Shown here: one piece after another, positions 2 to 21,400 of the stretch | How the letters are laid out: the number at the start of each line of letters is the position of its first letter | Position numbering within the stretch: position 1 is the first letter of the stretch | From: Tetrahymena thermophila SB210 | Taxonomy: Eukaryota > Ciliophora > Oligohymenophorea > Hymenostomatida > Tetrahymenidae | NCBI RefSeq assembly: GCF_000189635.1 | Contig: NW_002476512.1 | Location: 62,001 to 126,000 of the forward strand | Direction: 5' to 3' | DNA length: 64,000 nt | Made by a program: the position numbers and the translations under genes | Notes under the pieces: generated by a model | The model's input: only the letters and a program-made list of their open reading frames with translations | Databases searched by the model: none | Told to the model about the DNA's origin: nothing

Positions 2-526
2 GCAGCAAATGAATCTTAAATCAAGAAAGGATCAAATTTGATATCACTATAAAGCTCTACAGGAGAAAGCTAGTATTCTGCCAGCTCAAATAGAAATCTC
101 AATTATGGTAGCTAGAAATTATAGGGTGGAAGTATAGTTTTCTTCAGTTTAGATTCTCCTTTCACATAGTTATCAATATTTGCTTTTTAAGATTTACTTT
201 CTGCATTTAGCTAATAAGGAGTTTAATACACTTACTTACCTGATTAAGATTATGCTGTATACTTACCTTCTATTGATAAGCTCTAGAATATTACTTTAGG
301 ATTAGTTGCATAGGATGGTTCTGTTTATAATGCTACTCTTGCTCCTTAATAATATACTAAGCTTTTGAGCGATGGATAGTATTAACTTTTGATCATACCT
401 TAGTTCTATACTACTTCTATCACTTTGGGATATCCAGTATTTGAATCTTACTATATTGGTTTTGATTTACCTCACATATCTATTCTCATTGCAGAAAAAG
501 CTTAACAAAATTCTTTTGAAGCATGA
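2..526 (+). CDS. Pepsin-like secreted protein, C-terminal part (cut by window edge)
   Basis: The open frame runs from base 2 to a TGA at 524-526 with TAA/TAG read as Gln, about 174 residues. It matches the C-terminal half of the intact family members downstream. It begins at the segment equivalent to their DxSLIKQGSNLV stretch, continues through FFSLDSPFTQLSIFAF and LPSIDKLQ, and ends in FESYYIGFD, a pepsin-family end motif (compare LGDxFLRxYYxxFD). At the place of the second catalytic Asp-Thr-Gly motif it reads SLDSPF, so this lobe should be inactive. The start and first lobe lie outside the window. A signal peptide is expected from its paralogues but is not visible here. Confidence 0.75.
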
Positions 527-1749
527 ATTAAAAAATATTAAAATCAAAAAGTTATATAAGTGTGAAAACTACTTTTATTCATTTATGTTTTTATATATTG
601 GAATTTAAATATAAAATCAAACAATTAATACAATTTATTTATCTAAATACTTTACTATTTTATAAAATATATTAAATTTGATTTAGGATAATATTTAAAT
701 TAAGCAAGTGTTTGAAGATGCTCAAAAATTAAAACTGTTAGTATATTTTAATTTAAAAAATAATAATTTTTAAAACATTTTCATACAAAGATACTTTCAG
801 AAATTACAAAGTAACTTCAAATTTTGTAGACTTATTGTGAAAGTTTGCTTCAAAAGTGAAATAATAAAATAATATCTTATTAAAATTAGATGTAATAATC
901 ATAATAAAACTTTGTTTTGTTCACTTAATAATGTTATTTTTGTTTTGCAATTAGTTGTCTAAAGTTCAAAAAATATTTAAAATTTTATTATTAATATTAT
1001 TACATAAATTCAGTGAAGAATTTTTATTCGATGATATAATTAAGCATTCTTTGTTTACATAAAATTAATAACGAATTATATATTTTATTTAAAATAAATT
1101 TAATATCATAAATTCCGAAAAGCTTAATTTAATGATTGAATAATTCAATAAAATATAATTATCATAATTAGGAAATTATATTTATATATATAAACTTTCC
1201 AAATTTGTCTTACAGATTTAATTTTATTATTTTATGTTTCTGGCATCTATTAATAAATTTAACTTTTTAAATAAAAGAATTCATGATATAAATCAAATTT
1301 GAATAAAATCTTACTATTCAATTCAATTTTTAGATTTATTTAAAATAAAAATGAAAATAAATTTTATTTTTATATTTATTTTAGGGGCAGATGGTGGATA
1401 TCTGAGCTCCCTAGTGGCAGAGGTAAGGGATATTTGGAATTGATAAGCTGTGAGAGAGCAGATAGTTAGGATGTATATAAATTTTAGAAAAAATATTTGA
1501 TTATTTTAGTTCAAAATTAAAAGGGTTTTTTTTTAATAAAATTTCTGATAATTAACAAAAATCAGCTTTTGGTTATCAAAATTAGGAAAATATAAAAAAT
1601 TAGTTCTTAACATTATTTTCTACAATAATTAGAATTAAATCTTATTTTTAAACTTTTTATTTCATATCAAATTATACTTACAATTACCTGATTTATTAGA
1701 AAAAATTATAAACAAGCAATCTTAACCAAATGTAAATTAAATACCTAAA
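527..1749. other. Intergenic, AT-rich, with one GC-richer patch
   Basis: Very AT-rich with no supported gene. One patch at about 1383-1475 is markedly richer in G+C than anything around it. It has no tRNA fold that I can recognise and only a short open frame. Confidence 0.5.
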
Positions 1750-2445
1750 AGGCTTTTGCTTAGCTTTTTTTTGTTAATAAATTTAACTTTAAGCTAAAAT
1801 TTGAATGTTACATTAAGTTTCAATCAAAATGTTTAGTTAAATTTTACTATAAGATATAACTTACATGGATTTAAATAATGATAATAGAATCTTATTCCTT
1901 CCATCTATTACTGCTCAAATGTCATTACTTAAACAACTTAAGAAGCATAGGAATTTCAATTGATTGACAAAGATTATAATGCTTAACTTCAAGGAGAAGA
2001 CTACTTATCAAACTTTTAGATAGAAAATTAATTAATTTCTTTAGCCTATACTGCTCCTAATGAATCATTTCATAATTATGGTTATAACGAGCTTTGCTTT
2101 AGCTTTTAGGATGATAAATCTCTGTCTATGATATTATATTAGCTATATCTAAAAAAATTAATTACTGAAAAATAAGTTTTCTTTAGCTAAAACTCTTTTC
2201 ATACCTTAAACACTTACTTGCTTGTTCAGAAATTTGATATAGGTTCTGCTGACATTTCATATTACCTTCTCATAGATTGCCGACGATGACTCTCCTTTTG
2301 TTGTTAGATTTAATCTATAACAATATACCTCGCAATTATCTTATAGGTAATATAAATTGTTATTTAGGTAACAAATTCATAATGCAGTTTTGATTTTTGA
2401 AAATAATATTTTCGAGTCTCTCTATGTCTGTTTAATAAAGGTAAG
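1750..2445 (+). pseudogene. Decayed copy of the pepsin-like family
   Basis: This stretch aligns by eye with the gene at 4095-5123 from the signal peptide (FCLA...) to the final FESxY region. Recognisable blocks include the coding equivalents of EKQVFFSLN and LQGEDYLS. The T-run near 1765 shifts the frame inside the signal peptide, a TGA follows soon after, and the middle is deleted so that the DIG(A/S) block is nearly joined to the DxxPFVVR block. It has no usable continuous frame. It is a plain host gene copy lost by decay, older than the duplicates downstream because it is more diverged. Confidence 0.65.
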
Positions 2446-4094
2446 TATTAAGTTCTTCTAACAGAAAAAGACTAATAAATTTCTTCTTAAATTTGAGAAT
2501 TAATCTAAAAAAATAGAAAAATAAATAAAAATAAAGAATGTTTTTTGTATTGCATAATTGTATGAATGAGAATCATAAATGTTAAATAATTAATTTTAAT
2601 ACAAGAAAACCATTTTATATAATTGAACTACAAAATGTTTAATTTATTTATTAAAATTATTAATTGATATATTTTTCATTAGAAATTTGATGTGATTTTA
2701 TTATTTTATTAAGATATAAACTCTTATTTTTAATAATAAAAGAAATATTGTTTTAAAGTAAGTAAGTAAGAAGCTACTAAAAAATATTTAAAATAGTATA
2801 AAAGCTATAATTCAAAGTAAACAGCTTAGATAAGTTAGTTTTTTTATTGATATTTTTACAAAATATTTCTAGGGATTATTGATTTTTTTCTTAAAATTTT
2901 GATAAATCATGATTAAATTTTTTGAAAAATAAAATTTATACTATTTATTATATTTTAAATTCTAAATAGTACCCTCTCTCTAAAAAAATGGCTAAATATT
3001 ACTTTGAAAAAAAGTAAAAAATTAACATACACTAATACATTGAGTTAGACTTTTGTAGTAGGTTACACCTATTTAGCAATTCTAATTAATTTATTAATAA
3101 ACTTTTAGAAATTCGATAAGAAATTTTTTTATTTCAAGTCATAAAGTTAATAAGAAATTTTGATAATATTAACTTATTTCTAACATTTCATCAAAAATAA
3201 GGCTGATTTTTTAGAAAAGAATTTGTTGTTTAACTTAATCATTTCTTATATTTTATTATTCCTTGTGTAAGAAATAGTAAAATTAGTAAAAATAGAAAAA
3301 CATCTTCAAATAGTTTATATGGCATAGTTTAAAAATAGCAGAAAAATACTTGAATAATTAATTTATAAATACTACAGATACGAATATGAATATAAAATAT
3401 TTTATAATTAACTAAATATTTTGCTTCCTTTATTAATTGACAATAATAATTTAAAAGAATTAAAACATCAAATGAAAATAAAATTATTATTTTTAGGAAC
3501 CTTTTAAATTATTTTGACATTGTTGTTTAAAAATGAATTAATCGCATCTATTTGTTTTCTGTTTTATTTAATAATTAAGCTATTGATATGATCTTTAAAC
3601 TATTCAGCTTATTTTCATAATATTCGATGTATAATGAATAAGAATAATTTTTCATTTTGTTAAATTTTTTTATAAATGCAAATTTATTTTTTAGTAAATT
3701 GATACTGAAATGAAATTAACCATTTTTAAATCACTTTGATTCTTCAAATTTGTAGTCAACTTAAAATAATTTTTGATTATTTTCACTAAATAGTTCTTTG
3801 TAAAAAAAATAAGGAGAAAGAAACAGATACAGTCTTGATAAATCTAGAATTATATTATATTATAAATGTAAAATAAAAGATTTTTAATTGAGAATTATTA
3901 TGAGGAAATTAATAATTTAAATCAAACTTTACAGTAAAATGGAATAATATAGTATTTGTTTGATTCGTGATCATAATTTCTTTTATTAGCTCAATTATTA
4001 TTAAACAGATTGAACAGTGCTTAAAAGCAAATAAAAAATCATAGAAAAAATATATAAAATTAAATTAAATAACAAAAAATAAAAATAAAAGTAA
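2446..4094. other. Intergenic, AT-rich, partly duplicated at 10.85-11.96 kb
   Basis: No gene seen. From about 2968 onward the sequence is recognisably repeated upstream of the gene at 11959, for example the shared block around 3045-3070 and 10915-10940 (ttgagttagacttttgtagt). Confidence 0.6.
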
Positions 4095-5123
4095 ATGAAA
4101 AGAAACTTGACTAGCTTTTGTTTAGCTCTTGCGCTAATAAATTTAACTTTGGCTTAAAGTCTTACTGTTCCTTTAAGTGCTAACTAAAACGGAAAGCTTT
4201 TCTTCACACTTAAATATTCATAATATGGATTCAAAGATTGTTAAGTGAATTTTATTCCTTCCATTTCAGATTGTACTAATGTAGTGACTTAAACTGCTTA
4301 AGAAGCAAAAGAGTGTGGTTCAGTTTACATCGGCCCTAATACTTAAGTTTAAGGAGATGACTATTTATCCACTTTTTAGATTGGAGATCAATTAGCTTAG
4401 ATAACTTATACAGCTCCAAATTAATAGTCAAGCTTTTACGGTGAAAACGAGCTCTGCTTTAGTATTTTAAATGGTAAGTTTGAGTCAAACGCTTTAGACT
4501 AGCTCTTTAAAAAGTAATTGATTAGTGAAAAATAAGTTTTCTTTAGCTTAAACGCTTAATAGAACTTAAACTAACCCATTCCAGCTGGAAGAATGGATAT
4601 TGGTGCTCCTGATACCTCATTAATTAAGTAAGGTAGTAATTTAGTTTACTTAAAGAACTTTGGTCTTCAAAATATCTATTCAGCTCCTGCTAATAGAGAT
4701 TTGAAATTTGGTGACGTACCTTTATCTAATGTTTAAGTTGCAGAATTCGACATTGAATCTCGTTTCCATATTTTGTCTATATTCACCTTCCCTAGTCTCC
4801 TTTAAGCTTTTGAAAGCTAAGGAATTGAATACACTTACCAAAACGATAATGTTTTCTTACCATCCATTGAGAAGCTTCAAGATATTACCCTTTCATTGGT
4901 AGACGAAAATAATTAACCATTCATTGTTAGATTATAACCATCATATTATACTTAACAATTACCTAATGGATAATACCTATTGCTATTTAAAAAGCAAATA
5001 CGTAATGCAGCTATTATTTTCGGTAATGCTATCTTTGAGTCTTACTACATTGGTTTCAATAAAGACAAATAGTAGATTATCATAGCAGAAAAGGAATAAC
5101 AATAAAATAGTTCTTAGATTTGA
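4095..5123 (+). CDS. Secreted pepsin-fold protein, catalytically dead
   Basis: A single exon of 342 residues, intact with the ciliate code. A signal peptide covers about residues 1-22 (FCLALALINLTLAQ). Family alignment to A1 (pepsin) proteases rests on three blocks: LFKKQLISEKQVFFSLN (pepsin L.nQGLIs..vFSfyL) at about residues 136-152, MDIGAPDTSLI (pepsin fGG.D.s.y) near 165, and IIFGNAIFESYYIGFN near the C-terminus. The first active-site loop is shortened to CQVNFIPSISDC with no DTG. At the second site the sequence is FDIES instead of DTGT/S. A fold without peptidase activity, acting outside the cell or in the secretory path, is therefore inferred. The ATG is followed at once by the signal peptide. 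It is the parent of the shorter copy at 11959. Confidence 0.85.
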
Positions 5124-5993
5124 TTACGATAAGCTATTTAACTTTATAAAAATAATTGTTATATACATATATATAAAATATATTTTTTTTAAAAATAGAA
5201 TTTAACATTTAATAAAATTAAATTTGCAAATTTATTTAATAATTTTATACTCTAATTATTTTTATTAAAGAGTAATTATGTTTTCATATTTATTTGTCAA
5301 TCTAAATTTTATAATTAATAAATCAATTGCTAAAAATTCAAAGTATTATAAAATTATAAAAGAATCAATTGAATTTTTTATTTATTTTAAAGACTTTTCT
5401 TATTTTTAATAAAAATGGAATCAAATTTTTTTATCTTGAAAATCGATTTTTGAATTAGGCAATCAATCGTATTTATATTCTTGAAATAATGAATTATGTT
5501 TGATTCTTACTAATTTTTAATATTAATGTTGTTTATAAAATTGAGGCAAAATAGCTTTTAATTTGGCGACATTCTTACAATAAAGATAAAACATATTAAA
5601 CTTAAAACAAAATAAACTAAAAATAATAATGCAGTTATTTATTAAATTCTAATAAATAAAAGTATTTAAAACAGAAAAAAATATCTGAATGCTCAATCTA
5701 GAAAATTTAATAAAGCAAGCATATTTTTAATCTGATAAATTTAAATAAATAAATTTATATTTATCTTTTATAATTAAAATTCTGTGCTCCAATGAAATTG
5801 TCGAGATTATAAAAGAACTATTCAGTAATGAAAAACTGCAATTAATGTAGACTGATTAAAAGACTTTTCTATGATCTAAATATTGATTATAAGCTTCTGA
5901 TAAATTTGTAAAATTAAGTAAATTATTATTTCTTTAAATCCTGAGAAATATAATAAAAAATTTAAAGATAATAATTAAAAAAAATAACTAAAA
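5124..5993. other. Intergenic within the array
   Basis: AT-rich spacer between two pepsin-like genes. No coding or RNA gene seen. It is partly conserved in the duplicate at 12532-13139. Confidence 0.6.
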
Positions 5994-7073
5994 ATGAAAA
6001 TGAATAAAAAGATATTGTGTGTTTTGATTATATCTCTTATTTTATTTATAATTCAAACTTAAGCTGCTAAAATTACTATCCCTCTAAGATAGTACGATAG
6101 TGGAGATTTGTATATTAATACAAGTTACGGAACTCAAGATTGTGAAATTGATCTCTTTATTGAATTCACTTAAGAGTGCTACAATATTATTTCTAATCCT
6201 TTACATTAAACTGATGTCTGTGGTGCAAAATATATTGGTATTGAAAATTATTACACTAAAAAACCAAATTACTCAACTTAGTTTTAACTGGGAAACGCAT
6301 AAGCCACTCTATAATTCATAGTATCTAATGAATTTAGCGATATTGGCCGTAGAACACTTTGCTTTTCAAGTCAATCAAATCATCAAGATAATGCCTTTGT
6401 CTAATTATTTGAAGAGAAATTAATTTCAAAACAAGTAGCTTACATTAACTTGAATAGAACTACTTAAGATAAAGCTGATGACTCGGTTGTTGGAACAATT
6501 GACATAGGAGAACCAGATTTGTCTTTAATTAAATAAGGATCTAACTTAGTTGAATTGCAGAAATACACTGTTTAAGATTTAGGTAATTATAGTTCTAATT
6601 GCAAAAAGGCTACTTATTCAGGATAAAATTTAGACCTCTATAGCTTTACTCATATTAACTTTAATTCTCCTTTCACCGTTCTTCATAATAAAGCTTTTAA
6701 TAAAATCCTTCAAACATTTAATTAAAATGGCATTAAATACAGAATTGATTAACCTTCACAATATAAATCTCCTTCCATTTATTTACCTTCAGTAGAAAAG
6801 TTGGAACCTTTGCAATTTTAATTCTAAACAGTAGAAGGAAATGATTTTACTATTACACTCTAGGCTTATCAACTCTACTAATAGTTACCAAGCGGAGAAT
6901 ACCAGTTATTAATCTAGAGTTAACTACCTTCTTAAAACTATTAGTCTATTGGTTCAACCGTTTTTTAGGATTACTATATTGGAGTTGATTTTTAGAAATA
7001 GTCAATTCTCATAGCAGAGAAAGCTTCAAGTTAAAAACTGTCTAATTTCAGAGGAACAAAAAATTTACAATGA
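5994..7073 (+). CDS. Secreted pepsin-fold protein, catalytically dead
   Basis: A single exon of 359 residues. The signal peptide is about residues 1-24 (a hydrophobic VLIISLILFIIQTQA run). Conserved family blocks are a Cys-flanked first loop (CEIDLFIEFTQEC, no DTG), RRTLCFSS, LFEEKLISKQVAYINLN, IDIGEPDLSLIKQGSNLV, HINFNSPFTVL in place of the second DTG/S motif, LPSVEKLEPLQ and FQDYYIGVDF near the end. Both catalytic Asp motifs of A1 peptidases are absent. Compared with the gene at 4095 it is a diverged paralogue with extra residues in the middle and at the C-terminus. A second ATG two codons downstream would only shorten the signal peptide. The substrate or ligand is unknown. Confidence 0.85.
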
Positions 7074-7725
7074 ATATAAATTGTATCAAAAATTTAATAT
7101 AATAATTTTATATCTTAAATAATTTTTTTATTAGTATTAAGTAAATATTAAATCTATAAAAATATTTCAGTTTAAACAGATAAAATAGCAAAATAAAATA
7201 TTTACTATGTTTTTATTCTTATAAAATTTGAGTATTAATTAGGTGTTGTATGTCTTGTTTCTAATTCCTCTAAGTATAAGAATTTTTTTCATTTATGTTA
7301 TGCATTTTATTTGTAATTTTATAAAAGAATTTCAAAAGTAAGATAGGTGTCTATAGATAGATGCTTGTATTGAGAAATAATACCGTAAATTCTCCTTAAT
7401 TAAGACACTCGACTTTTAAATGTTTGATTGAAAAATGGTGTCTTTTTAAAAGGTTTTTAAAAATCTAAGAAATTAATTTAATTTTATTTCAAATTTAAAA
7501 GTAGGCAGTAGCTTTTTGTTAATTCCCGTTCATATTTCTATTTTATCATTAGTGTTTGTGATCATTAACAAAATAGTTTCTATTTAAGGTATGTAAAATA
7601 AAATTGGAAGTTTATTCTCTTAATTATCACTAAATATACAATTAGATGTTTGAAATCCTTTCTCAATCAATATTAAACTAATAATAAAATAAATATTAAA
7701 AATTACTATATTGTAAATTAGAAAA
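7074..7725. other. Intergenic within the array
   Basis: AT-rich. The first 270 bases are the 3' flank shared with the duplicate copy at 14152-14408. Nothing else recognised. Confidence 0.6.
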
Positions 7726-8753
7726 ATGAAAAAAAATATTCTAATTTTGATTTTAATTATTTCAGCTCTGGGTTGTGCTGTATCAAAATAAATTACTGTT
7801 CCTCTCAGGTTAAGCAAGAGTAAATCACTTTAAGTTAGATCTAACTATAGTACTGCTAAGTGTTAAGTTGATTTTTTTATTTCAATTAATTATTGCAATA
7901 ACTCTATTGAAAACTCCAAAGAAGTGCTAGAAAAGTGTGGATCCAAGTACGTTGAAAATAATGCAAATTAAAAGGGTTATGATTATAAATCTAAATTTTT
8001 GCTTGGAGACAAATCCTATGAATTGACTGTAACTTCACCTCATACAGATAAATCTCCATTTTATTTTATGGATATAGCATTTTATGCCTAGGTTTCAAAT
8101 ATCATGATTTCCTATTAAATGCCCTTTAAGAATTACAAGCCTCTAAATAAATTGCTGAATAGAAATTGTTTATAACATTGAATAGCACAGCTCCTTCTTC
8201 AGATAATTAAATCATAGGATAACTCGATTTTGGTACTCCTGATATATCTATAGCTTCAATAAATAACTTTGTGTAAATAAAATACTAATATAGTGTAGTA
8301 TCTTATAAAGCAACTTCTAAAAATTATTTTAACTATGGTTAAGAATAGATTTAAAGTGATGACACTATTTACTTTAATTTAGATTCTGCATTTACTGGTA
8401 TCTCTATAGAATCTTTCTAAAAACTATTATCTTTGTTAGAATAATAAGATGTTGCTTATGAATTCATAACAGAAAAAAATGCTCTATTTGTGAATTCTGT
8501 TGATAAATTATAAGCTTTATAATTTGTTTTATCCTAAAAAGATGATAGACCCTACATTTTAACCATCAACCCAACCTAATATACTAAGAAATTAAGTGAA
8601 AACAAATTCTAAATAATGATTTAGCCTATATACACAAAAGGATTTTCATTTTTAGGATATAATGTGTTAGAATCATACTACGTTGGTTTTGATTTATCTA
8701 CAAAGTCAGTATTAATTACAGAAAAGAAATAAGTTTTATCTGAGAAATATTGA
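7726..8753 (+). pseudogene. Pepsin-like family member with one frameshift
   Basis: The ATG at 7726 opens a signal peptide (ILILIISALGCAVS) and the family first lobe (CQVDFFISINYC). The frame then runs into a TGA, while the homologous frame continues one step off as FYGYSILCLGF..., LQELQASKQI, DFGTPDISI, FNLDSAFTGI, VNSVDKLQ and LESYYVGFDL to a TGA at 8751. The switch lies around 8055-8070. No intron with GT/AG borders restores the frame without removing conserved residues. All else is open, so this is a recent loss, or a single base error in the assembly. The catalytic motifs are missing as in the paralogues. Confidence 0.7.
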
Positions 8754-9876
8754 AATTTTAGTTAAAAATTAATAATAAAAAAAATAAAAAATATTTTATA
8801 AAATATATATATATTTTAGAAACATAAAATTAATTTAAATTAAATTTTCTTTTATTATAATAATTATATTTTTAAATCATTTTTTAAAAATGATTATTCT
8901 TTATATAGCTGTTCCTGGGGAAAATCACTTTTTTAAATTAATTACAAAACTTGGTGTTATTATTTGAAAAATCACAGTTTTCATATTTAATCAATCAAAT
9001 ATAAAAACACACTTGATTTTTTATCAAAAGCGATTGCCTGAATTTTTTAATAAAGAGAAAAAAAACATGTCTAAAAAATAATATTTATAAATATTACATT
9101 TTTAAAAATAATTTAATTGTAATTAATATTTTAAAAATTAATTATTTATATTAATTTATAATATAGAATTCAAATGAATTTCCTATTTTTTAGGTATCTC
9201 ATTCATATTTTATATTGAAAATTAATTGAAATAAAGTGAATAAATCTGGTTGAAGTATTTTGAAATGTACATCATTGAATGATGATTGTTTGAATATTAA
9301 TAAGTCACATTAAATTACATAAATTAAGAATATATTTACTTTTATAATCAATAGACTTTAACTATTATTTGAAAGTAATGATAATTTAGGTAAATCTAAT
9401 TTGTGTTTAAAAACAATAAAAATTTTTTTTGTGTTTATTTTCTTTTATTTTTTTGTGAAATTGTGATTTAAAATATAGTTTTTAATGAATGAATAAAGAA
9501 ACCAATCAATCAATAATAAATAATGATATTGCTTTTGATAAATTAATAAATGGTTTGTTATAAAACATCATAGTTTTATCATTTAATACTTTTGTTTTAA
9601 TTTATTAAACTACTAAATTTTTATAAAAATGTCACTATTCATTTAATAATGATAGTTCTTAATAAAAAGATTTTCCATTAACCCAAAAAATCCTTTATAA
9701 TTTTGAGATTCATTTGTGATTATATTTTTGTGTAAATGAATAGTTTGTGATTCGTAATTCTATACTATATCTTAATATTACATTAAATAATTAACTCGTG
9801 ATATTTAAGATTTCTTTTACTATCTATAATTAATATAAAAACACAATTAAAATAAAAAAAAGTTAATTTTGTATAA
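8754..9876. other. Intergenic, very AT-rich
   Basis: No gene or RNA recognised; homopolymer runs and simple AT-rich sequence only. Confidence 0.6.
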
Positions 9877-10130
9877 ATGAGAAGTACCTTTGCTTTCATT
9901 CCCATATTTGCAACAATATTTGGATTTATTCAAATCAAAGAATTAGTATTCCTTTGAAAGTTAATGATAAGTAGTAATTGTTTTTTACAGTCTAATATTA
10001 TGAAAAATAATGTTAGGTTGATTTAATACCTGATAGTAACTTTTGTTCTAACATTATAACTAAACCTTCATAAGTTGCTGATTAATGTGGATCATTATAT
10101 ATGGGTGTTAAATAATAAAACTATATTTTA
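9877..10130 (+). pseudogene. N-terminal fragment of a pepsin-like family member
   Basis: The ATG at 9877 gives a signal-peptide-like start. One base out of that frame lies a clear family N-terminus: RISIPLKVND, then CQVDLIPDSNFC (the shortened first active-site loop), NIITKPSQVADQCGSLYMGV. After about residue 90 the homology ends in AT-rich sequence and the rest of the gene is missing. The signal peptide and the domain are in different frames, so it is broken. It is a plain host gene remnant. Confidence 0.6.
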
Positions 10131-11958
10131 CTAAAATAATCTTTAATATCCATAATACATACCACTTTATTTTGTTTACTTAATATCTTTACTATTATTA
10201 TTATTATTTTGTAATTAGTTGTTGAAAGTTGATCCTTCCTTTCATGGTTAGAAAATTCATTTTAACTTGAAATATTAAAATTAAATTTACCCAACGATTA
10301 AACAATTATGCTGATATACTTTAATAAAATTATTATTTTGATTTTAAGAAAAATTACCTTTTTTTTGTTTCATATCTATTAGGCTAAAATAAATCCAATA
10401 ATTATAAACCAATCTAACTTAAAAATTATATTTTTTTTAGTTATTAATAATTAAAATAAAAAATTTTACCTCATAATAAACAGCAAAAATTGTCTAAAGT
10501 TACTGCCATCTATATGGATATCTCTTTTTAATTTTTTTAAAAAATGCTGAAAAGAAGAGAGTGCTAATATTATTAATATGATAAAAAATAAGGTTTAAAT
10601 GAATTTGCTTTATCTTTAAGAGAAAAAAAAACCTTATTGTTAAAATAAAAAAGAAATTAAAATGAATAAATATATACTTTTTGATAAACATATTATTAAA
10701 ACAAAATCTTTTTATTTAATAATAGATTTTCGTAATTAAAAATGAATGAGAGTATTTATATTTTAAATATTTTAATAATTAAGTAATTGAAATAATTTAT
10801 TTTTAAAAGATTCATACAAAATATTTATTTATAAATTTTAGTATAAAGTACCCTCTATAAATTGGCTAAATATAAGTTTTAAAAAAGTAGAAAATTTATA
10901 TACAATAACGACTCTATTGAGTTAGACTTTTGTAGTAGGTTACATATATATCAATACTAATTAATTTATTATTTTTAACTTTTAGAAATTAGATAAGAAA
11001 TTTTTTTATTTCAAGTCATAGAATTAATAAGAAATTTTTAAAATATTAACTTCTTTCTAGCTTTTCATAAGAAATAAGACTGGTGGATTAGAAAAGAATT
11101 TGTTGTTTAATTTTATCATTTCTTATATACTATTAATCTTTGTGTAAGATTTTTGTAAAATTAGTTGAAATTAGAAAACATCTTATAAATATTTAAATGA
11201 AATAGTTTAAAAGTAGCAGAAAAATGCTTAAATAATGAATTTATATGCACTAAATATAAGAATATTAGTATATAATACTTCATAGTTAACTAAATATTTT
11301 AAATTGACAAAAAATAATTAAAACAACAAATGAAATTAGTATTTTTAAAAACCCTAAATTTTATTTTGATATTACAGTTTAAAAATGAACCAATCAGATC
11401 TATTTGTTTCTTGCTTTATTTAATAATTAAGATAATCTTAAAACTATACAGCTTATTTTCATAAAATTAAATGTGTAATGAATCAGAATCAATTTTAAGA
11501 ATCTCACATTTTTTCATTTTGTTTAATTTTTAATAAGTGCAAATTTATTTTTGAGTAAATTGATGCTGATAAGAAATTAATCGTCTTTAAATTACTTTGA
11601 TTCTTCAAATTTGTAGTCACCTTTAAATAATTTTATATTATTTTCATTCAAAAATAAAGAGTTCTTTGGAATATTAATAAGGAGAAAGAAGCGACCTTGA
11701 TATATCTAGAATTATATTATATAATAAATATAAAATAAAGATTTTTCATTGAGAATATTATAGGAGGAAATTAATAATTTTTAATCAATCATTATAGTAA
11801 AATGGAATAATATAATATTTGTCTGATCAGTGATCATAATTTCTTTTATATGCTTAATCACTATTAAATCGATTGAAAAAATATTTAAAAACAATAAAAA
11901 ATGAAAGAAAAGTATTTAAAATTAAATAGAATAAAAAAAATAATAAAAGTAAAAGTAA
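10131..11958. other. Intergenic, right half belongs to duplication copy 2
   Basis: No gene supported. From about 10847 it parallels the region upstream of the gene at 4095. A minus-strand Lys/Phe-rich open stretch near 10500-10690 is judged to be chance in AT-rich DNA. Confidence 0.55.
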
Positions 11959-12531
11959 ATGAAAAGAAATTTGGCTAGTGTTTGTTTGGCACTTTTGCTA
12001 ATAAATTTAACTTTGGCTTAAGCTGGAAGAATCGAGTAAGATAGTAATTTAGTTTACTTAAAGGACTTTGGTCTACAAAATGTCTATTCAGCTCCTGCTA
12101 ATAGAGATTTGAAGTTTGGCGATGTACCTTTATCTAATGTTTAAGTTGCAGAATTCGATATTGAATCTCCTTTCCATATTTTGTCCATATTCACCTTCCC
12201 TAGTCTCCTTTAAGCTTTTGAAAACTAAGGAATTGAATACACTTACCAAAACGATAATGTTTTCTTACCATCCCTTGAGAAGCTTCAAGATATTACCCTT
12301 TCATTGGTAGACGAAAATAATTAACCATTTTTTGTTAGATTATAACCATAATATTATACTTAACAATTACCTAATGGATAATACCAATTGCTATTTAAAA
12401 AGCAAATACGTAATGCAGCTATTATTTTCGGTAAGGCTATTCTTGAATCTTATTAAGTTGCTTTCGATTAAGACAGACACTAGGTTATCATAGGAGAAAA
12501 GGGATAACTATATAATAATAATTAGATTTGA
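11959..12531 (+). CDS. Short pepsin-like protein lacking the N-terminal lobe
   Basis: Open from the ATG at 11959 to a TGA at 12529-12531, 190 residues. The signal peptide (LALLLINLTLAQ) is joined in frame directly to AGRIEQDSNLVYLKDFG, the point that lies about 165 residues into its duplicate at 4095. The rest follows the C-terminal half closely: FDIESPFHIL, LPSLEKLQDITL, and a diverged end (IIFGKAILESYQVAFD). The deletion removed the whole first lobe and the conserved DIGAPDTSLI block, yet kept both the signal peptide and the frame. The final YYIGFN has become YQVAFD. It may be a functional mini-protein or a pseudogene that happens to be open. Confidence 0.6.
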
Positions 12532-13139
12532 TTAATATTAGCTATTTAAGATCTATTATAAAATAATTATTATATATATATACATAAAATTTGTTTTTTT
12601 TAAGTAAAATTTCAAGTTAAAAAAATGAAATTAGCAAATTTATTTAATCATTTTTTACTCTATTAATTTTTCAATTTTTATTAACTCATAAAAGTATTAC
12701 TTGAATTTTTTATTTTATTTTTTAAAGACTTTTCATACTAACAATAAAAATTAATAAAAATTGATTCAAATATTATATCTTAATAATATAATTGTTTTTA
12801 AATGAGACTAACAATAGTATTTAAATTCTTGATAAAATGAATTATATTTAATTGCTACTAATTTCTAACGTTAATGTTGTTTATATTGTTGAAGAGACAA
12901 CATAATTATACAAAATGAAACTAAAAAGAAAAATGAGGTTATTTATTAAATTCTAATAAATAAAAAGAATTAAAAAGTGAAAAAAATATTTCGATTTTCT
13001 ATCTAGAATATTTGTTAAATGAAGTTTATTTAATCTGAAAATTTAAATAAATAAATTTATCTTTTTCTTTTATAAAAAACACATTGATTGCAATTTAATA
13101 AAATTGTAAAGATTATAAAACAACTATTGAGTAAAGAAA
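12532..13139. other. Intergenic within duplication copy 2
   Basis: AT-rich spacer homologous to 5124-5993. No gene seen. Confidence 0.6.
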
Positions 13140-14151
13140 ATTGCTGCTAGAATTATGTCCCTCTAAGATAGTATTATAGTGGAGACTTGTATATTAATGC
13201 AAGTTACGGAACTCAAGATTGTGAAATTGATTTTTTATTGAATTCACTTAAGAGTGCTACAATATTATTTCGAATCCCTTACATTAGTCTGATGTATGTG
13301 GTGCAAAATATATTGGAGAAGAAAGTTACTACACTAAAAGACCCAATTACTCTGCTTAGTTTTAACTGGGAAACACATAAGCTACTTTGTAATTTATACC
13401 ATCTAATGAATTTAACTATATTGGTCGTAGAACACTTTGCTTTTCAAGTCTAACAAATCATCAAGTTAATGCCTTTGTCTAATTATTTGAAGAGAAATTA
13501 ATTTCAAAACAAGTAGCTTACATTAACTTGAATATAACTACTAAAGATAGTGCTGATGACTCGATTGATGGAACACTTGACATAGGAGAGCCAGATTTGT
13601 CTTTAGTTAAATAAGGATCTAACTTAGTTGAATTGGATTAAAGTGGTTATTAAGATTTAGGAAACTATAGCTCTTATTGCAATAAGGTTACTTATTCAGG
13701 ATAAAACTTAGACCTCTATGGCTTTATTCATATTAACTTTAATTCTCCTTTCACCGTACTTCATGATGCAGCTCTTAATTAAATCCTTAGTACATTTAAT
13801 TAAAATGGTATTAAATACAGAATAGACTAACCTTCAAAATACAGGTCTCCTTTGATTTATTTACCTTCTGTAGAAAAGTTGGAACCTTTGCAATTTTAAT
13901 TCAAAACAGTAGAAGGAAATGATTTTGCTATTACACTCTAGGCTTATCAACTTTACAAATAGTTACCAAGCGGTGAATACTAGTTATTAATCTAAAGTTA
14001 ACTACCTTATTTAAACTATTAGTCTATTGGCTCAGCTGTTTTTTAGGATTACTATATTGGAATTGATTTTTAGAAATAATCAATTCTCATAGCAGAGAAA
14101 GCTTCAAGTTAAAAACTGTCTAATTTCAGAGAAACAAAGAATTTTTATTGA
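13140..14151 (+). pseudogene. 5'-decayed copy of the pepsin-like gene at 5994
   Basis: From about 13240 to the TGA at 14149 the frame is open for about 300 residues and close to the gene at 5994 (YIGEESYYTKRPNYSAQF, LFEEKLISKQVAYINLN, HINFNSPFTVL, FQDYYIGIDF). The 5' end is damaged. The signal peptide codons are not recognisable, one base is missing near 13150 and one near 13232 relative to the intact copy, and no in-frame ATG stands before the conserved part. It is best read as a recent pseudogene of the duplicated block. Confidence 0.7.
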
Positions 14152-15542
14152 AAATAAATTATGTAAAAATATACTATAAAATAATTTTATATATTAAATA
14201 ATATTTTTATTTTTCTCTTTAGTAATTATTAAATCTATAAAAAATATTTCAGTTTTAACAGATAAAATAACTAAATAAAATATTTATTTTGTTTTTGGTC
14301 TTAAAATGTTGGAGTATTTATTAGGCTTTATATTTATTTCTTGTCTCTATCTAGTTATAAGCATTCTTTGCTATTATCTTTTCAATTTTATTAATTTCAA
14401 AAGTAATATTTATGTCAAAAAATAGATCTTGTATTGTGAATATATAAAAAATATTTATATGATATAAAAAAGAATAATTTATTTATAAATTTTTAACCAA
14501 CTATGCAAAATAACTAATAATATTAAAATGAGATTTTATAAATAAAAGAAGTTAATTCAAAATAATGTTAATATTTTTTTAAAAATACACAAGGATTTAA
14601 TTATATTTCATTTCATTATGAATTGTTCAAAAATTTTTAATTTGTAATATGTTTTTATTAAATATGTTTAATTTAACTGTTTTTTTAATATTTCCATACT
14701 TTCTTTCATATGGTAAATATATTATTATCCAAGAGTCTAATCTGATTTATTATGCTTTGAAAATCTTCAAATTTTACTTTTAAATAATCAAAAATTGAAA
14801 AGGAATTTTTTTTCTAAATATTTATTCTGATCAGAAAATACATTAATTTATCCATTTAATCAAATTTGAAAGTACGTTAATTTTTATATTTGATCAAATT
14901 ATGAGAAAAAGCAAAAAATCTTGATTTAAATTGAGAAAAAATAAAAAAAATATTTTATCACTGACATTTATTAATTTTTCACAATTATGATTAATATTTT
15001 GCTTATTTTATATCAAGTATTGAGAATTTTCAACACTGATTAAGCATAATGAAAACAATATTTTAAAAACAACTAGAATTCAATTTATTTATTTAATTTT
15101 AGTAACATTTTAAAATTGTAAATCCAAATTAGATTGGTTTCAAATTAATATTAAAATAATCTAAAAATAAAAAGCTTGGAAATTTATCAGTTAAATTTTT
15201 CTTATCATTTATGATTATATGTTGATATATAATAGATAACCTGATTCTTATGTAATTTTAAAAACAAGGATGATATGTAATAAAAAGGTAGGTAGAATGT
15301 AATAAAATTAATTTTTTATCTAAAATAGAAAACTGTTTTGTGTTTAGTGATAGAAATATGCTTCCATATTTTAATTAATTACACACAGTAAGACACTAAT
15401 ATAAAACTGAATATTTAAATAAATTTCCATTTTTTTTGATTTTAACTGCATGAAAATTAATTAACTTTTATTTTCGATGAGAAAAGATCAATTTTTATTA
15501 ATAAACTAAATATACATTTATAAAAAATAATTAATACAATTT
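14152..15542. other. Intergenic between convergent genes
   Basis: AT-rich. The first 250 bases are shared with the flank at 7074-7345. Nothing else recognised. Confidence 0.6.
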
Positions 15543-18455
15543 TCAATACTTCATAATTAATTTATCATTTTTCCACTCCCCTGTAGCAAAACCAACAGCA
15601 TCTTCATACATATAATTACCATTTCCGTTTGCTTAGTTGTTAATAAATTGACCAACAAAATAATCGTTGTTCGAAAAAGTGATAGTTCCAAAGCCATCTT
15701 TTTTACCATATTTGAAATCTCCTTCATATTTTACTTAAAAATCTTAAAGCTATGATAAATCTTGATAGTATCTCTCTTTTACTTTGATAATAAATTCTTT
15801 TTATAATTATTCAACTTAGGCTTGTGAAAGAGTTGGTTATTACTAAATTAAAAGACTAAACTATTATATTTGCTATTCTGGTATTTTTAGTGGTTTAGGG
15901 TCTTTATAAAATAATGTACCAAAACCATGATATTAGTCATCTTCCCACTATCCTTCGTATTTAATTGAGCCATTTTAAAAATATTATGTTCCTTTACCCT
16001 TTTTTTATTTTAAAATCATTGATAAGCGTTAAAATTTCATGACTTATTAAATAAAAATAGATTGAGAATATATAATAAAGATAGATAGATCTTACATGAC
16101 GCTTGTTGTTTTACCACTCTCCTTCATATTTTTGTTGATTGCTAAAAATGAATACTCCATATCCATGCTTTTTACCATCTAAAACATCTCCTTCATAGAT
16201 ATTTCCATTTTTATATTTTATTGTTTATTTAATAAGATTCTTATTTATTATTTTTGGTAGGTCTGGATTTTCTATAAAAAGCTGCTTTGATGTGCTAGTG
16301 AGCATAACTTCATTTTATTGGCCTGGAGAAAGGTTGTTATTATCAATTTTTTAAGTTGCATTAATTCCACTGAGATTTATCAGGTGATTATCTTGATCAG
16401 TGTTAATTTGCTAAGGTGATTAGAATTATGATTAATACTATTATGCTCCTAGGTTATTTAGGTTATTCTGCATATTTTATTAAATTATGTTTTAAGAATT
16501 ATTTCCATTTTAAGGTGCAGCGAGTGGTCTAGATTTTGTAGGAGAGTTGTTTGTAAAAGGTATTTCATAATTACCAAGCTACTGCAATTAGTTATTCTAT
16601 TAAAGAGTTTTATCTCCATAAACTCCACCAGATATAGGATTAAGACCTTAGTTGAGCATCATCATTTGATGCTGTTGGTCAATAAAGTTAACTTAACTTA
16701 TTTAATTTTGGTTTGGATTAATTTTTTGGCTTGCAGGATTAAGCAAAATATTATCTACAGCAAACTGAACTTCAGCTCTTTAGCTCTATCTGAAAAGCTA
16801 TTCAGTAAGATAAGAAGTTTTAGCAATAGAATCCTTTAAAATATTAAGAGCATCTTGTTACTGAATGGCTTTAATAATGATATCTTTTTCAGTTAACTCT
16901 TTTTGCTATTTTTCTTTGTCTTCTTTTACTTATTTCTTTCTTAACTCTTCTTGTTTCTTTTGTTCGATTTCTTAGTCAGACATAAAAGAAGCTGGCTTCA
17001 TTTTATATAAATTAGGTACTTAAACCATTTCACATATTCTCCTTCCAAATAATTTAGGACAAGAGCTCAGTTTTCTGTCCAGAGACCTAAAATCAGGTCT
17101 ATATTTTTCATCTAAAATACACATCTCTTAAATAATTTGAGAATAGTCAGAAGAATAAGTATTACTGATTCTGCTTAATTTATCATTTAGAACCTGCTAG
17201 TTTATTGAATGATCAATAAGTGAATATACATCAGCACATGATTCAAAGAGAGATAGATGAACTAAAAGCATTCCCAAAGTAAAAACATCGCTTTTATACT
17301 CATTGTGAACAGGATGTTCTATATTATTTCCATATTGAGTAAATAAAAGTGGTGAGAGATAGATGTATTTATCAAATTATGTGAGTTGATTTTCATAATT
17401 TGTAGTGTAACCCATAAGCTAAGAATCAGCTAATTTAAAGAGTTTGATATTCTTATGGTTCGAATTTATATATATCGTATCTAGTCTCAAAGATTAATGA
17501 GTTAAATCTCTTTCCTGCATAAACTCTAAAACTCCAACAATTGAGTCAAGCAAAAACCAAAGTTCGTCTTCACTAAACTTTTAAATCCTATCCTTTTTGA
17601 TAGTATTTAGTAAGTCTGCTTCAACACTATCGAAAAGCATGAAAATTTTAAAAAATGTAGCACAAAAGCTCTCAACCTTTTAATGACAGCAAGCTAAATA
17701 CATTAAAAAAGACAATATTTATAAAAACAATAAAGCAATTTTTATTTTCAAAAAAGAAATTTATTTAATAAAAATCGTTTATGTTTAATATTTTATTGAT
17801 AATGATATTTTATAAAATATTTTATAATAAATTATGTTTGTTTTAGTAAATATAAAAAATAAAAATATAATTGATATTAGTCTATATCATCTAATAGTAT
17901 AACTAACTAACTATCTTTAAACTTTTAAACTTATCTAAAATAGATTTTACAGAAAATGTAAATTTAGATTGTTTTATTTTAAAATTTATGAGCAAATTCT
18001 AGTAACTCATGTAAATTTGATATTTTATTCAATATGATCAAAATATAATCAAAATTATTTTATGCATATTCACTAAAACTTTGATTATTTCTTATTTTAT
18101 ATCTAAATATTTATAAAATATTACAATGAAGCTAGATTAAATTTGGGTGCAACAGTAAGCTTTAACGCTTTACCCACATTTCAACTTATTGGTTAAGTTC
18201 TTCCTCGCTTTTAGTAAACATTTCTTTCAAATATATGCGAAAATTTTTGTTGTGGATACATTTATACACATCAACGTTTCCTAAATATGGATCTTTGTAA
18301 TTATGCTAAGCTAAGGTAAAATCTTTCATAATCTTTTTGAATCTTGATTCATTGTCAGTTTCTATTAATCCATCTTCGCTTTGTAATTCTGCATTAACAT
18401 TTTTGCTTGAAGCCTCTTCACTATTTCCTAATAAAACAGACTCTAATTAACCCAT
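15543..18455 (-). CDS. Pseudokinase with C-terminal MORN repeats
   Basis: Three exons, 18455-18125, 17693-16096 and 15998-15543, give 794 residues; phases agree at both junctions (introns of 431 and 97 nt). The N-lobe (about residues 55-110) includes YLGNVDVYKCIHNKNFRIYLKEM, with the Lys at the VAIK position. The catalytic loop reads HQSLRLDTI where HRDxKxxN is expected, and the DFG site reads ADSQ, so both the catalytic Asp and the Mg-binding motif are lost. The C-lobe continues with SDVFTLGMLL. A Glu/Lys/Gln coiled region (DQEIEQKKQEELRKKQVK) and an Asn/Gln-rich linker follow. Five MORN repeats end the protein (YEGDVLDGKKHGYGVF, YEGEWQNNKRHGKGTQYF, YEGQWEDDQYHGFGTLFY, YEGDFKYGKKDGFGTITF, FVGQFINNQANGNGNYMY). 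MORN repeats often bind lipid or scaffold cortical structures. A scaffold at the membrane or cytoskeleton is inferred. Confidence 0.88.
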
Positions 18456-21400
18456 TTTTATTCCTATTTCTTAAAATTCAAATAATCAGTGATGATTTTC
18501 TTGATTTCAATAATTTAAAGTTTAGAAACATCAGGTTTTAAGATATAATAATAAAGATTTATAAATATTAGATTGATGATGCTAATGTGATTTAAATCCA
18601 AAATTATTATTGAAAAACCTTAAACGTTAAAAGTATTCAAAAATTTAAAAATCAATTTCTCAAAATTTAAATATTCATTTTATTTTAATCAAAACTGCAT
18701 TATTTTTGTTAAAATATTTGTTTTTTAATAAAATAAATTATCACAATAATATTTAAAGAACTTAATGTTATTTTTTCATAGAAATAAAATGTTTAAATCT
18801 TTTAAAAATAAATGATTTGTATCAAATAAATTTGTAAAATCATAAAATAAATTTTTAATAAGCATAAAAATGTTTAAATATTTTAAAAATAAATTAGTAG
18901 TAAAAGTGTACTTTGATGAAAAATAATTAATTTTTATCAAATAAAATATTAAAATGACTTCAATAACATGTTTAATAAGAACAAAAATATAATGTCTGAA
19001 TTCGGAAATTACCATCAGCAATATTTGTGCTAAATGGGTAGTAAGAAACTCAGGCTGTTTTTGCGAAAACTGTTTTGCTTATACAGAACTAGTCTGAACA
19101 AACTATTAGTAGTTCTCGCTTGATTATGTATTTTTTTTGTATATCAAATAATTAATAAAGAAACTATTTTTATCATAAACAATCACTTATATATTTAATT
19201 TTGTTAGTTTTATGAATTATTTGAGCTTGTAAAATAAAAAATTATGGTTTTCATAATATTAAAATATAATATTCTCACTTAAAATAATTGCTTTTAATAA
19301 GTAAAATAAAAATTTTAAAATAAATAAATATCTAAGCATTTCACTTAGAAAATTAAGATTGTTTTTTAATAAAAGATTTTAAGAATTTAAATTCACTACT
19401 TTCTATTAGATTTAAAATTATTAAACTATAAAAAGAATTAATTGAGGTTTTAAATATATTCTAATCTGATTTTATTTTATTTAAAACAAAATTATTAATG
19501 TACAAGCATTATAATTAGAAATATTTTAAGTATATTTTATTAATATTATTTTTTGGAAAATTTTGTTAATTTTATTTTAAATTTCAATTTATAATTAAAA
19601 TTTATTTCAATTACTTCATTGATGATATTTATTTATTTACTTTTATTTATTCCTTGTTCCTCCACATAGACAATAATTATTTTTCCAGTAAAAGTTTATT
19701 ATTTTGAATTAACGTATATACTATTTAAACCAATTTATATAAAGTATTTATAATAACCAAGTCACAAATGCTTTTTAAATTCTGAAGAAAATAATTTTAT
19801 TTTTTGCATGGCTTATTCAATTTAACTCTGTTTTGAATGCAATAGAATCCTTTTAAAAAAGAAAATATGCTCTAAATATTAGCAGTTTAATATTTTTCTA
19901 TTTTAAATAAAATTTATTTCTAAACAATTTTGATATTCGAAAAAGAAAAGCAATAAAGCTATCTTAAATTTAAGAAAATTTAAAATGGCAGTTAAAATTT
20001 ACTTATTTTTCGTGATAGATGTTATAAGTAATTATTAAAATAGAGATTACTGATACTCAGCTGATTGATCATTATAAAATTTGCGCGAAATAAATTATAA
20101 ATATAATATAAATAGGAGATTCTAATAAAAGTAGATCAATTACCAAATAATCAAAATTTAATGTGAAGATTTTCAAATTTAGTTTATTTCTAACGATCTT
20201 TGAATTTAAAATAATCATCTGGTAAATAAAAAAATATTTGATGGTATTTAAACCAAATAATGTAATTAAGTATTTAAATGAAAAATTTCTAACGTTTTAA
20301 TTACAGTGTATTAATGTAAATACTAAAATAAATTAAAAATAGTAGGTAGCACTAAAAACTTCCTTATTAAGACTATACCAATTTTTCAAATTTTAAACAT
20401 AACATTTTGATAATTAAAATTGGTTATACTGGCATTCATATTTTAGATAAATTTTTGATTGAATTTTAAAATTATTAATAAATGTTTATTTATTTGTTGG
20501 AAATTTATTCATGTAAATTTATTTCATGTTACAGATTGATTGGTTGTTTGTATGTATTTTTATTAGGGAGCTGTACTCCTGCTATCTTTTTTGTATTTGA
20601 AAAAGAAGAATTCAGTTAGAAAAGGTAAAATTATTAATTAAGATATTTTTTCTTTTACATTTGCAAAAGTATTTGGAAGAATTAGAGTGTTGATTTTCTA
20701 TCTTAAGTTGCTTTTTTTAATTTAATTCAGATTTCTATTTTCCTTTTTTTCAATAAGGAAATTGCTTTAATTTTAAACTTAAAATCTAACTAGTACATAT
20801 TTTTTAAAGCTTTTATAGTTTAAAACTAATAGATTTTAAATCCTAAATTTAAAATTGTGAATTATAGTAATGCAATTAATTATTGGAAATAAGCTAATTC
20901 AAAAATTAATAAAGAAATTTAATATAATTTGCGGATTTTCTATTTGTTTATTTGAATTTTTAGTAAACCAGTGTGAATAAGTAACTTAAAAGATACATTT
21001 GAAAATAGTTAGCCAAAAAGCATTCAAATAAATTTATTTCTTGACAATTTTCAAATATCTCTGGATATTTCAAAAAAATTAATTAAGAAACTCTTAAGAT
21101 TCTCTTTCTATAGAGCTCATTTGTTCAATTTATTTAAAACTATAAAATAGAGTTATGCAACCAAACAAGCTTATTAAAAGTTAAATGATCTTCCTTCTTC
21201 TCGAGTTCATCAAAACTAATATTTAGTTCATCAATTTTATTGACAAATAAAATAATATAATCTCTATGTAAGGAAATAGGTATTATTGTATATTGTATGA
21301 ATAAAAAAATGGAATGAGTATATTAAATTATAAAGATATATACAGATTGGCTGACTGACAGACTGAAAGCATGGTTTAAATTTTTGAAAATAAATAAAAT

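Follow-up and report, generated by a model that had tools for sequence, protein, structure and literature searches.

The first 14 kb of the window analysed here, a 64,000-nucleotide stretch of the genome of the unicellular freshwater grazer Tetrahymena thermophila SB210 (C60:62001-126000, where C60 is contig NW_002476512.1; TAA and TAG are read as Gln), contains an array of genes for proteins that are related, by profile comparison, to the A1 (pepsin) peptidases and lack their catalytic motifs. Eight copies or fragments of this family are located between positions 2 and 14151, all on the forward strand (Table 1), and two of them, P0001 and P0006, are intact open reading frames (ORFs) of 342 and 359 codons. 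In searches of the genome with these two proteins, the queries themselves were found with E values of 6e-203 and 2e-217 and their nearest window copies with 2e-79 and 2e-152, so the resemblance among the window copies exceeds chance. The organism agrees with a telomerase (TERT) fragment of this genome, identical in 102 of 102 residues to a T. thermophila TERT chain in the PDB, and with a Tetrahymena small nucleolar RNA in the window (see below). A preliminary description of this DNA had counted the same eight units; the count stands, with the correction that the unit at 2-526 belongs to an intact gene of 340 codons, which begins outside the window and of which it forms the 3' end.

The whole array spans approximately C60:51.7 kb to 76.1 kb, with its 5' part beyond the window edge. 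In a DNA self-comparison, C60:59046-69376 matches 69449-76440 collinearly in six pieces, four of them 79-90% and two 71-73% identical, indicating that the array consists of an A-B-C-D block and a decayed duplicate. The "expanding array" of the preliminary description holds insofar as the 3' half arose from the 5' half by block duplication, but every copy in that duplicate is broken or internally deleted, and five of the eight window copies are in such a state. P0007 lacks both the invariant Y318 and the near-invariant G320 of the family. A-type and D-type paralogues are adjacent on contig C334 as well.

Table 1. Family copies in the window and the tandem cluster on contig C157 (window positions unless a contig is named)
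Feature	Position	Strand	Remarks
Gene "B", 3' end (174 codons and stop, C-lobe)	2..526	+	Intact 340-residue gene C60:61504-62526, start outside the window
Type-C copy, broken	1750..2440	+	Pieces in three reading frames; TGA within the matched frame
Type-C gene P0001, intact, 342 residues	4095..5123	+	Hydrophobic signal-like N-terminus; N-lobe with C49/C60/C74/C121
Type-D gene P0006, intact, 359 residues	5994..7073	+	Second catalytic column is Asn
Type-A copy	7726..8753	+	Duplicate of C60:59285-60307; frame break where two open frames overlap (8022-8181)
Type-B copy, N-terminal fragment	9877..10121	+	Frame broken
Type-C copy P0007, 190 residues, internal deletion	11959..12531	+	Signal-like N-terminus joined in frame to the C-lobe
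Type-D copy P0002, 306 residues open	13148..14151	+	No signal sequence; frame break near 13225-13231
Decayed second block copy	7449..14440	+	Duplicate of C60:59046-69376 (window up to 7376), order and strand kept
C157 cluster, four tandem members (L041/L042)	C157:475.8-488.0k		

The family is not confined to this array. Searches of the genome (101 Mb, 445 contigs) found 33 places with P0001 and 33 with P0006, while three further members used as queries found 13, 20 and 34. The places found with P0001 and P0006 include at least 25 full-length open frames of 335-374 codons, without introns over that length; since only the best candidates were scored by the search, 25 is a lower bound. Broken copies and fragments (the window pieces, C193:99.5k, C363:153k, C7:281.5k and C15) and the single-lobe frames on C174 and C250 were left out of this set, to which all family counts below refer. 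In the two single-lobe frames, L057 (C174:219.7-220.2k) and L058 (C250:30.8-31.3k), only the C-lobe comes after a hydrophobic N-terminus, an architecture shared with the deleted window copy at 11959-12531.

Pfam largely misses these genes. The 65 matches to PF00026 listed for the genome include no place of the 25; P0001 scores 13.8 bits against a cut-off of 19.9, P0006 does not match PF00026, and four of the 25 members match it at E 0.01 or better (best 1.4e-5). The active A1 genes of the same genome have strong PF00026 scores, and 33 of the 51 matched ORF pieces examined carry D[TS]G[ASTV], many of the remainder being fragments. The presence of 65 PF00026 matches in one genome with the family would suit a role as decoys or inhibitors that imitate A1 enzymes, form pairs with these or with proteases of prey, and regulate digestion; rhomboid pseudoproteases, described as regulators of rhomboid signalling (PMC3149277), are a precedent. 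This role nevertheless seems distinctly unlikely: no PF00026 match was found inside the array, and the nearest ones found on the contig are about 660 kb away.

Single proteins compared with Pfam and PDB gave sub-threshold or unrelated matches only, and the relationship to A1 peptidases emerges from profiles. A PDB search with a profile of the 25 members listed 60 of 67 sequences, all of them A1 (best E 0.0044), and the four residue alignments from this search cover the C-terminal 70 residues of BACE1. Comparison of the family by hhalign with eight rows of active A1 genes from this genome, several of which are partial, gave 98.6% and 96.4% in two settings. Without the signals, the mature part gave 96.7%, whereas 20 column shuffles did not exceed 0.8% and the reversed profile gave 0.4%. 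With ten active rows, the values were 96.9-97.7% over 24 settings. These ten, also used for the tree, are all but one of 11 rows, L069_p_5874 being omitted because it has no detectable D-T/S-G. The C-lobe alone gave 96.2%, and the whole N-lobe 30%, although its score of 28 exceeded those of all 20 shuffles (maximum 13.7). AlphaFold2 models of P0001 and P0006, made from the window sequences only, have mean predicted local distance difference test (pLDDT) values of 56.7 and 58.1, with the confidence mostly in the C-lobe. The 50 Foldseek matches listed for each model all have titles of A1 proteins, and the best E values are 4e-10 and 5e-11. The pepsin-fold relationship proposed in the preliminary description is thus upheld by profile comparison. 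Judged from sequence and predicted structure, the family is homologous to A1 peptidases; the homology is secure for the C-lobe, while the first half of the N-lobe seems to have been rebuilt past recognition.

None of the 25 aligned full-length members contains D-T/S-G at either catalytic place. The tripeptide D[TS]G occurs elsewhere in three of them, including DSG at residues 35-37 of P0006. In all 24 hhalign settings, D219 of P0001, which is the D of FDIES, falls on the catalytic Asp column of the second DSG. Across the family this column is occupied by Asn in nine members, Ser in eight, Asp in four, Lys in two, and Thr and Tyr in one each, and in no member are the two residues that follow it T/S-G. 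FDIES is accordingly best read as a site where the Asp is kept and the motif lost. The first DTG is placed on S56-I57-S58 by the ten-row active profile, a result reached in 12 of the 24 settings, while the eight-row profile puts the first catalytic Asp on S58 instead; this match is positional only, and both placements depend on collinearity. The loss of both sites asserted in the preliminary description is therefore right for the D-T/S-G motifs, but the statement that both aspartates are gone was too strong.

The N-terminal part of the proteins differs from that of the active enzymes in length. In all 15 active genes measured, 46-69 residues (median 57) separate the end of the hydrophobic N-terminus from the first catalytic Asp, compared with 24-37 residues (median 32) up to the matching first-site column in all 25 family members. 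The measurement covers 15 of 20 active rows: the open frames of L003 and L070 lack an N-terminus, the match of L005 fell on its second site, and no clear signal is visible in the 110 residues inspected of L008 and of L076. About 25 residues thus appear to be gone from the family where an A1 enzyme bears its zymogen prosegment, and we infer that the missing stretch corresponds to this prosegment. An I-P-L/I strand is located right behind the signal in several active genes, as it is in the family, which suggests that the family probably retained this strand and lost the remaining stretch.

Conservation of the loop cysteines, noted in the preliminary description, extends to the whole family: C49, C74 and C121 of the N-lobe are present in all members and C60 in 24. 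Each protein has a hydrophobic N-terminus, and in none does a later 19-residue stretch exceed a hydropathy of 1.6. Having such an N-terminus without a second membrane-like segment, the proteins have the appearance of soluble, secreted or luminal proteins and not of ones anchored at the surface; this localization is predicted from hydropathy.

The features described so far also bear on whether the proteins could still cleave peptides in some unusual way, using one Asp, a His/Asp pair or dimers of C-lobes. The Asp in the second column of four members, including P0001, the single member with Asp at both approximate places and the single-lobe open frames on C174 and C250 would be compatible with such activity. 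It is opposed by the 21 members without Asp in the second column and by the absence from all 25 of both the following T/S-G and the prosegment-like stretch. Unusual proteolysis is a very improbable role for the family, and catalysis in general is very unlikely.

In a tree of the 25 members and ten active genes, one branch parts the two groups with 100/100 support and in all 200 bootstrap trees (the root is assumed), so that a single loss is sufficient to explain the inactive family. The active A1 genes of the genome, on the other side of this branch, resemble the family in the fold of the C-lobe and, in several cases, in the strand behind the signal, but have D-T/S-G and the longer N-terminal stretch. 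Outside the family, the active profile also detected A1-like ORF pieces without D-T/S-G: L064 (C160:83.4-88.2k), L065_m_1069 (C439) and L061_m_459 (C51). More than one catalytic loss may therefore have happened in this genome.

Maximum-likelihood (ML) estimates of omega (dN/dS) for five gene sets, which cover 17 of the 25 genes, are 0.10, 0.12, 0.16, 0.20 and 0.50. With kappa held, every set rejects omega = 1, twice the log-likelihood difference (2dlnL) ranging from 24.5 to 261.9. For two of the sets the estimates are rough because their trees are long (5.2 and 7.2 changes per codon) and L053 is common to both. Pairwise estimates (NG86) exceed those from ML: young pairs, for example, have 0.43-0.79, and the window pair w4095/w11959 has 0.68. 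Four of the five gene sets are under strong purifying selection. Together, the tree and the omega values agree with the preliminary proposal that the dead form is ancestral, shared and selected. They also bear on the suspicion, raised by the five damaged window copies, that the array is a decaying set of functionless duplicates: the 25 intact open frames in the genome and the rejection of omega = 1 disfavour this explanation, which we regard as very improbable.

The fifth set shows positive selection in the rebuilt half-lobe. In the C157 cluster, omega is 1.27 for the half-lobe at the N-terminus (N half-lobe) and 0.24 for the remainder of the gene, a difference with 2dlnL 30.9 and p 2.7e-8. 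In the single-ratio test, omega of this half-lobe is not above 1 (2dlnL 1.1); the comparison of models M1a and M2a in the same region gives 2dlnL 15.15 (p 5e-4), with 24% of sites at omega 5.7. No positively selected site class was found in the remainder of the gene (2dlnL 3.77, p 0.15). The results for this cluster agree in log-likelihood (lnL) and omega between our own codon code and IQ-TREE. The whole-gene site test (p 4e-6) was replaced by the region-restricted test as the main result because the two parts support different trees, which indicates exchange (gene conversion or recombination) among the paralogues. Four multi-gene sets were subjected to site tests: C157 is positive, two are flat, and one, L053/L052/L054 (2dlnL 7.4), was discounted for the saturation of its tree, which has a length of about 50.

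Such selection is relevant to the idea that the proteins are structural or storage cargo, that is, stable disulphide-bonded folds packed in secretory granules or lysosomes, with a cleft that holds no ligand. Hydrophobic N-termini, no membrane anchor, near-invariant cysteines and many paralogues would fit such cargo, but positive selection in the C157 N half-lobe is hard to square with a passive role, and cargo is an unlikely answer.

The reading we favour, and consider somewhat more probable than all others taken together, is that of an old Tetrahymena family of ancestrally inactive, secreted or luminal pepsin-fold pseudoproteases that act by binding. For soluble, selectively maintained proteins that are rich in conserved Cys and have neither prosegment nor catalytic motifs, binding is the simplest action, and we infer this role as a reasonable one. 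The parts in feeding, in defence or at the cell surface that the preliminary description suggested are candidate settings for it. Once catalysis was lost, the prosegment would no longer have been needed, and disulphides may have taken over from the first catalytic loop as a scaffold. The partner could be a protein, peptide or glycan, bound in the secretory pathway, the food vacuole or the medium. The C-lobe would serve as a conserved scaffold and the N half-lobe as an adjustable face, a division that is clear only in the C157 cluster.

A more specific form of this model is a secreted recognition repertoire, in which the C-lobe would provide the frame, the prosegment and catalytic loop would be deleted, and the disulphide-bonded N half-lobe would form a positively selected face shuffled between paralogues. 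This elaboration is rather doubtful. An arms race among the window's own copies was considered and rejected, the N half-lobe omega being 0.15 for w5994/w13231 and 0.20 for type A.

Several observations weigh against the binding model or its more specific form. The first half of the N-lobe alone gives 0.5% in hhalign, no better than shuffles. Most of the N-lobe in the P0001 model and residues 53 to 132 in the P0006 model are below pLDDT 50; because most of the N-lobe falls below this level, the overlay on pepsin proposed in the preliminary description fails for it. The best Foldseek matches are loose superpositions, with template modelling (TM) scores of 0.41 and 0.54 and root-mean-square deviations of approximately 10. 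Some members have Asp at 56, 57 or 58, and in one of the 25, L053 (C7), it occurs together with Asp at 219, again without D-T/S-G. The length of the missing prosegment rests on the positional first-site column, and a Pfam scan of three active genes reported no propeptide domain. The N half-lobe and the remainder of the C157 genes favour different trees, and exchange between the paralogues may inflate the site tests. The other unsaturated sets show no diversifying selection, omega of their N half-lobe being 0.12-0.23; for the pair L050/L051 it is 0.81, not different from 1, compared with 0.56. Since diversifying selection is absent from the other sets, including window types A and D, a recognition role is not general in the family.

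Inactive members of the A1 family have been described elsewhere. The pregnancy-associated glycoproteins (PAGs) of ruminants are described as a large, secreted, pepsin-fold multigene family, often in tandem; in many modern PAGs, conserved residues of the catalytic centre are replaced in ways that may abolish activity, while ancient PAGs are predicted to be active (PMC2682831). Compared with this description, the Tetrahymena family is likewise large, secreted by prediction and often tandem. The catalytic centre of PAGs is substituted, however, whereas here both D-T/S-G motifs are gone from all 25 members, the prosegment stretch is apparently lost and the N half-lobe is unrecognisable. The plant TAXI-type xylanase inhibitor is presented as a non-peptidase A1 homologue whose fold binds rather than cuts (PMC2761423), and the likeness would lie in the use of an A1-family fold for binding. 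The analogy with xylanase inhibitors drawn in the preliminary description extends to function only: of the domains TAXi_N and TAXi_C, P0006 matches only TAXi_C, below threshold (13.5 bits, cut-off 23.9), and nothing links the Tetrahymena family to xylanases. Bla g 2 of the cockroach, reported as an inactive A1 homologue of unknown function found in gland secretion (PMC9541408), accounts for two of the 50 Foldseek matches listed for P0006; it resembles the family in its inactive A1 fold, which for the family is predicted, and the alignments have 14% identity, partly over the low-confidence N-lobe.

The published protease count for T. thermophila includes 43 aspartic proteases (PMC3341644), and a microarray study lists one highly expressed "eukaryotic aspartyl protease" (PMC2636879). 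Within the open-licence literature, no paper was recognisable by its title or the start of its abstract as describing this family. Pseudoenzymes of this kind are already known elsewhere; new here are the apparent absence of the prosegment-like stretch throughout the family and the four near-invariant cysteines of the N-lobe. If the binding model is correct, 25 or more A1-like genes of T. thermophila, mostly missed by Pfam, encode non-proteases, and the organism offers a tractable genetic model for the passage from an enzyme fold to a binding protein after joint loss of the active site and zymogen control, with the C157 cluster making the location of a new binding face testable. Should the recognition repertoire exist, it would give the protists a counterpart to diversified binding families, with a dead protease as its basis.

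Three further features were noted in the window. The intergenic segment 1351-1500 has 34-35% G+C and a strong G skew, compared with 11-20% G+C in its neighbours; a DNA search of the genome with 1380-1480 matched this segment only, and no Rfam family matched it at E 1. Downstream of the array, ORF pieces on the reverse strand at 15550-17890 resemble, by eye, a protein kinase domain with MORN-like repeats behind it, the frames being split in an intron-like manner. Also on the reverse strand, positions 18990-19122 match the Tetrahymena H/ACA small nucleolar RNA TtnuHACA14 (RF02321) over its full length with 166 bits.

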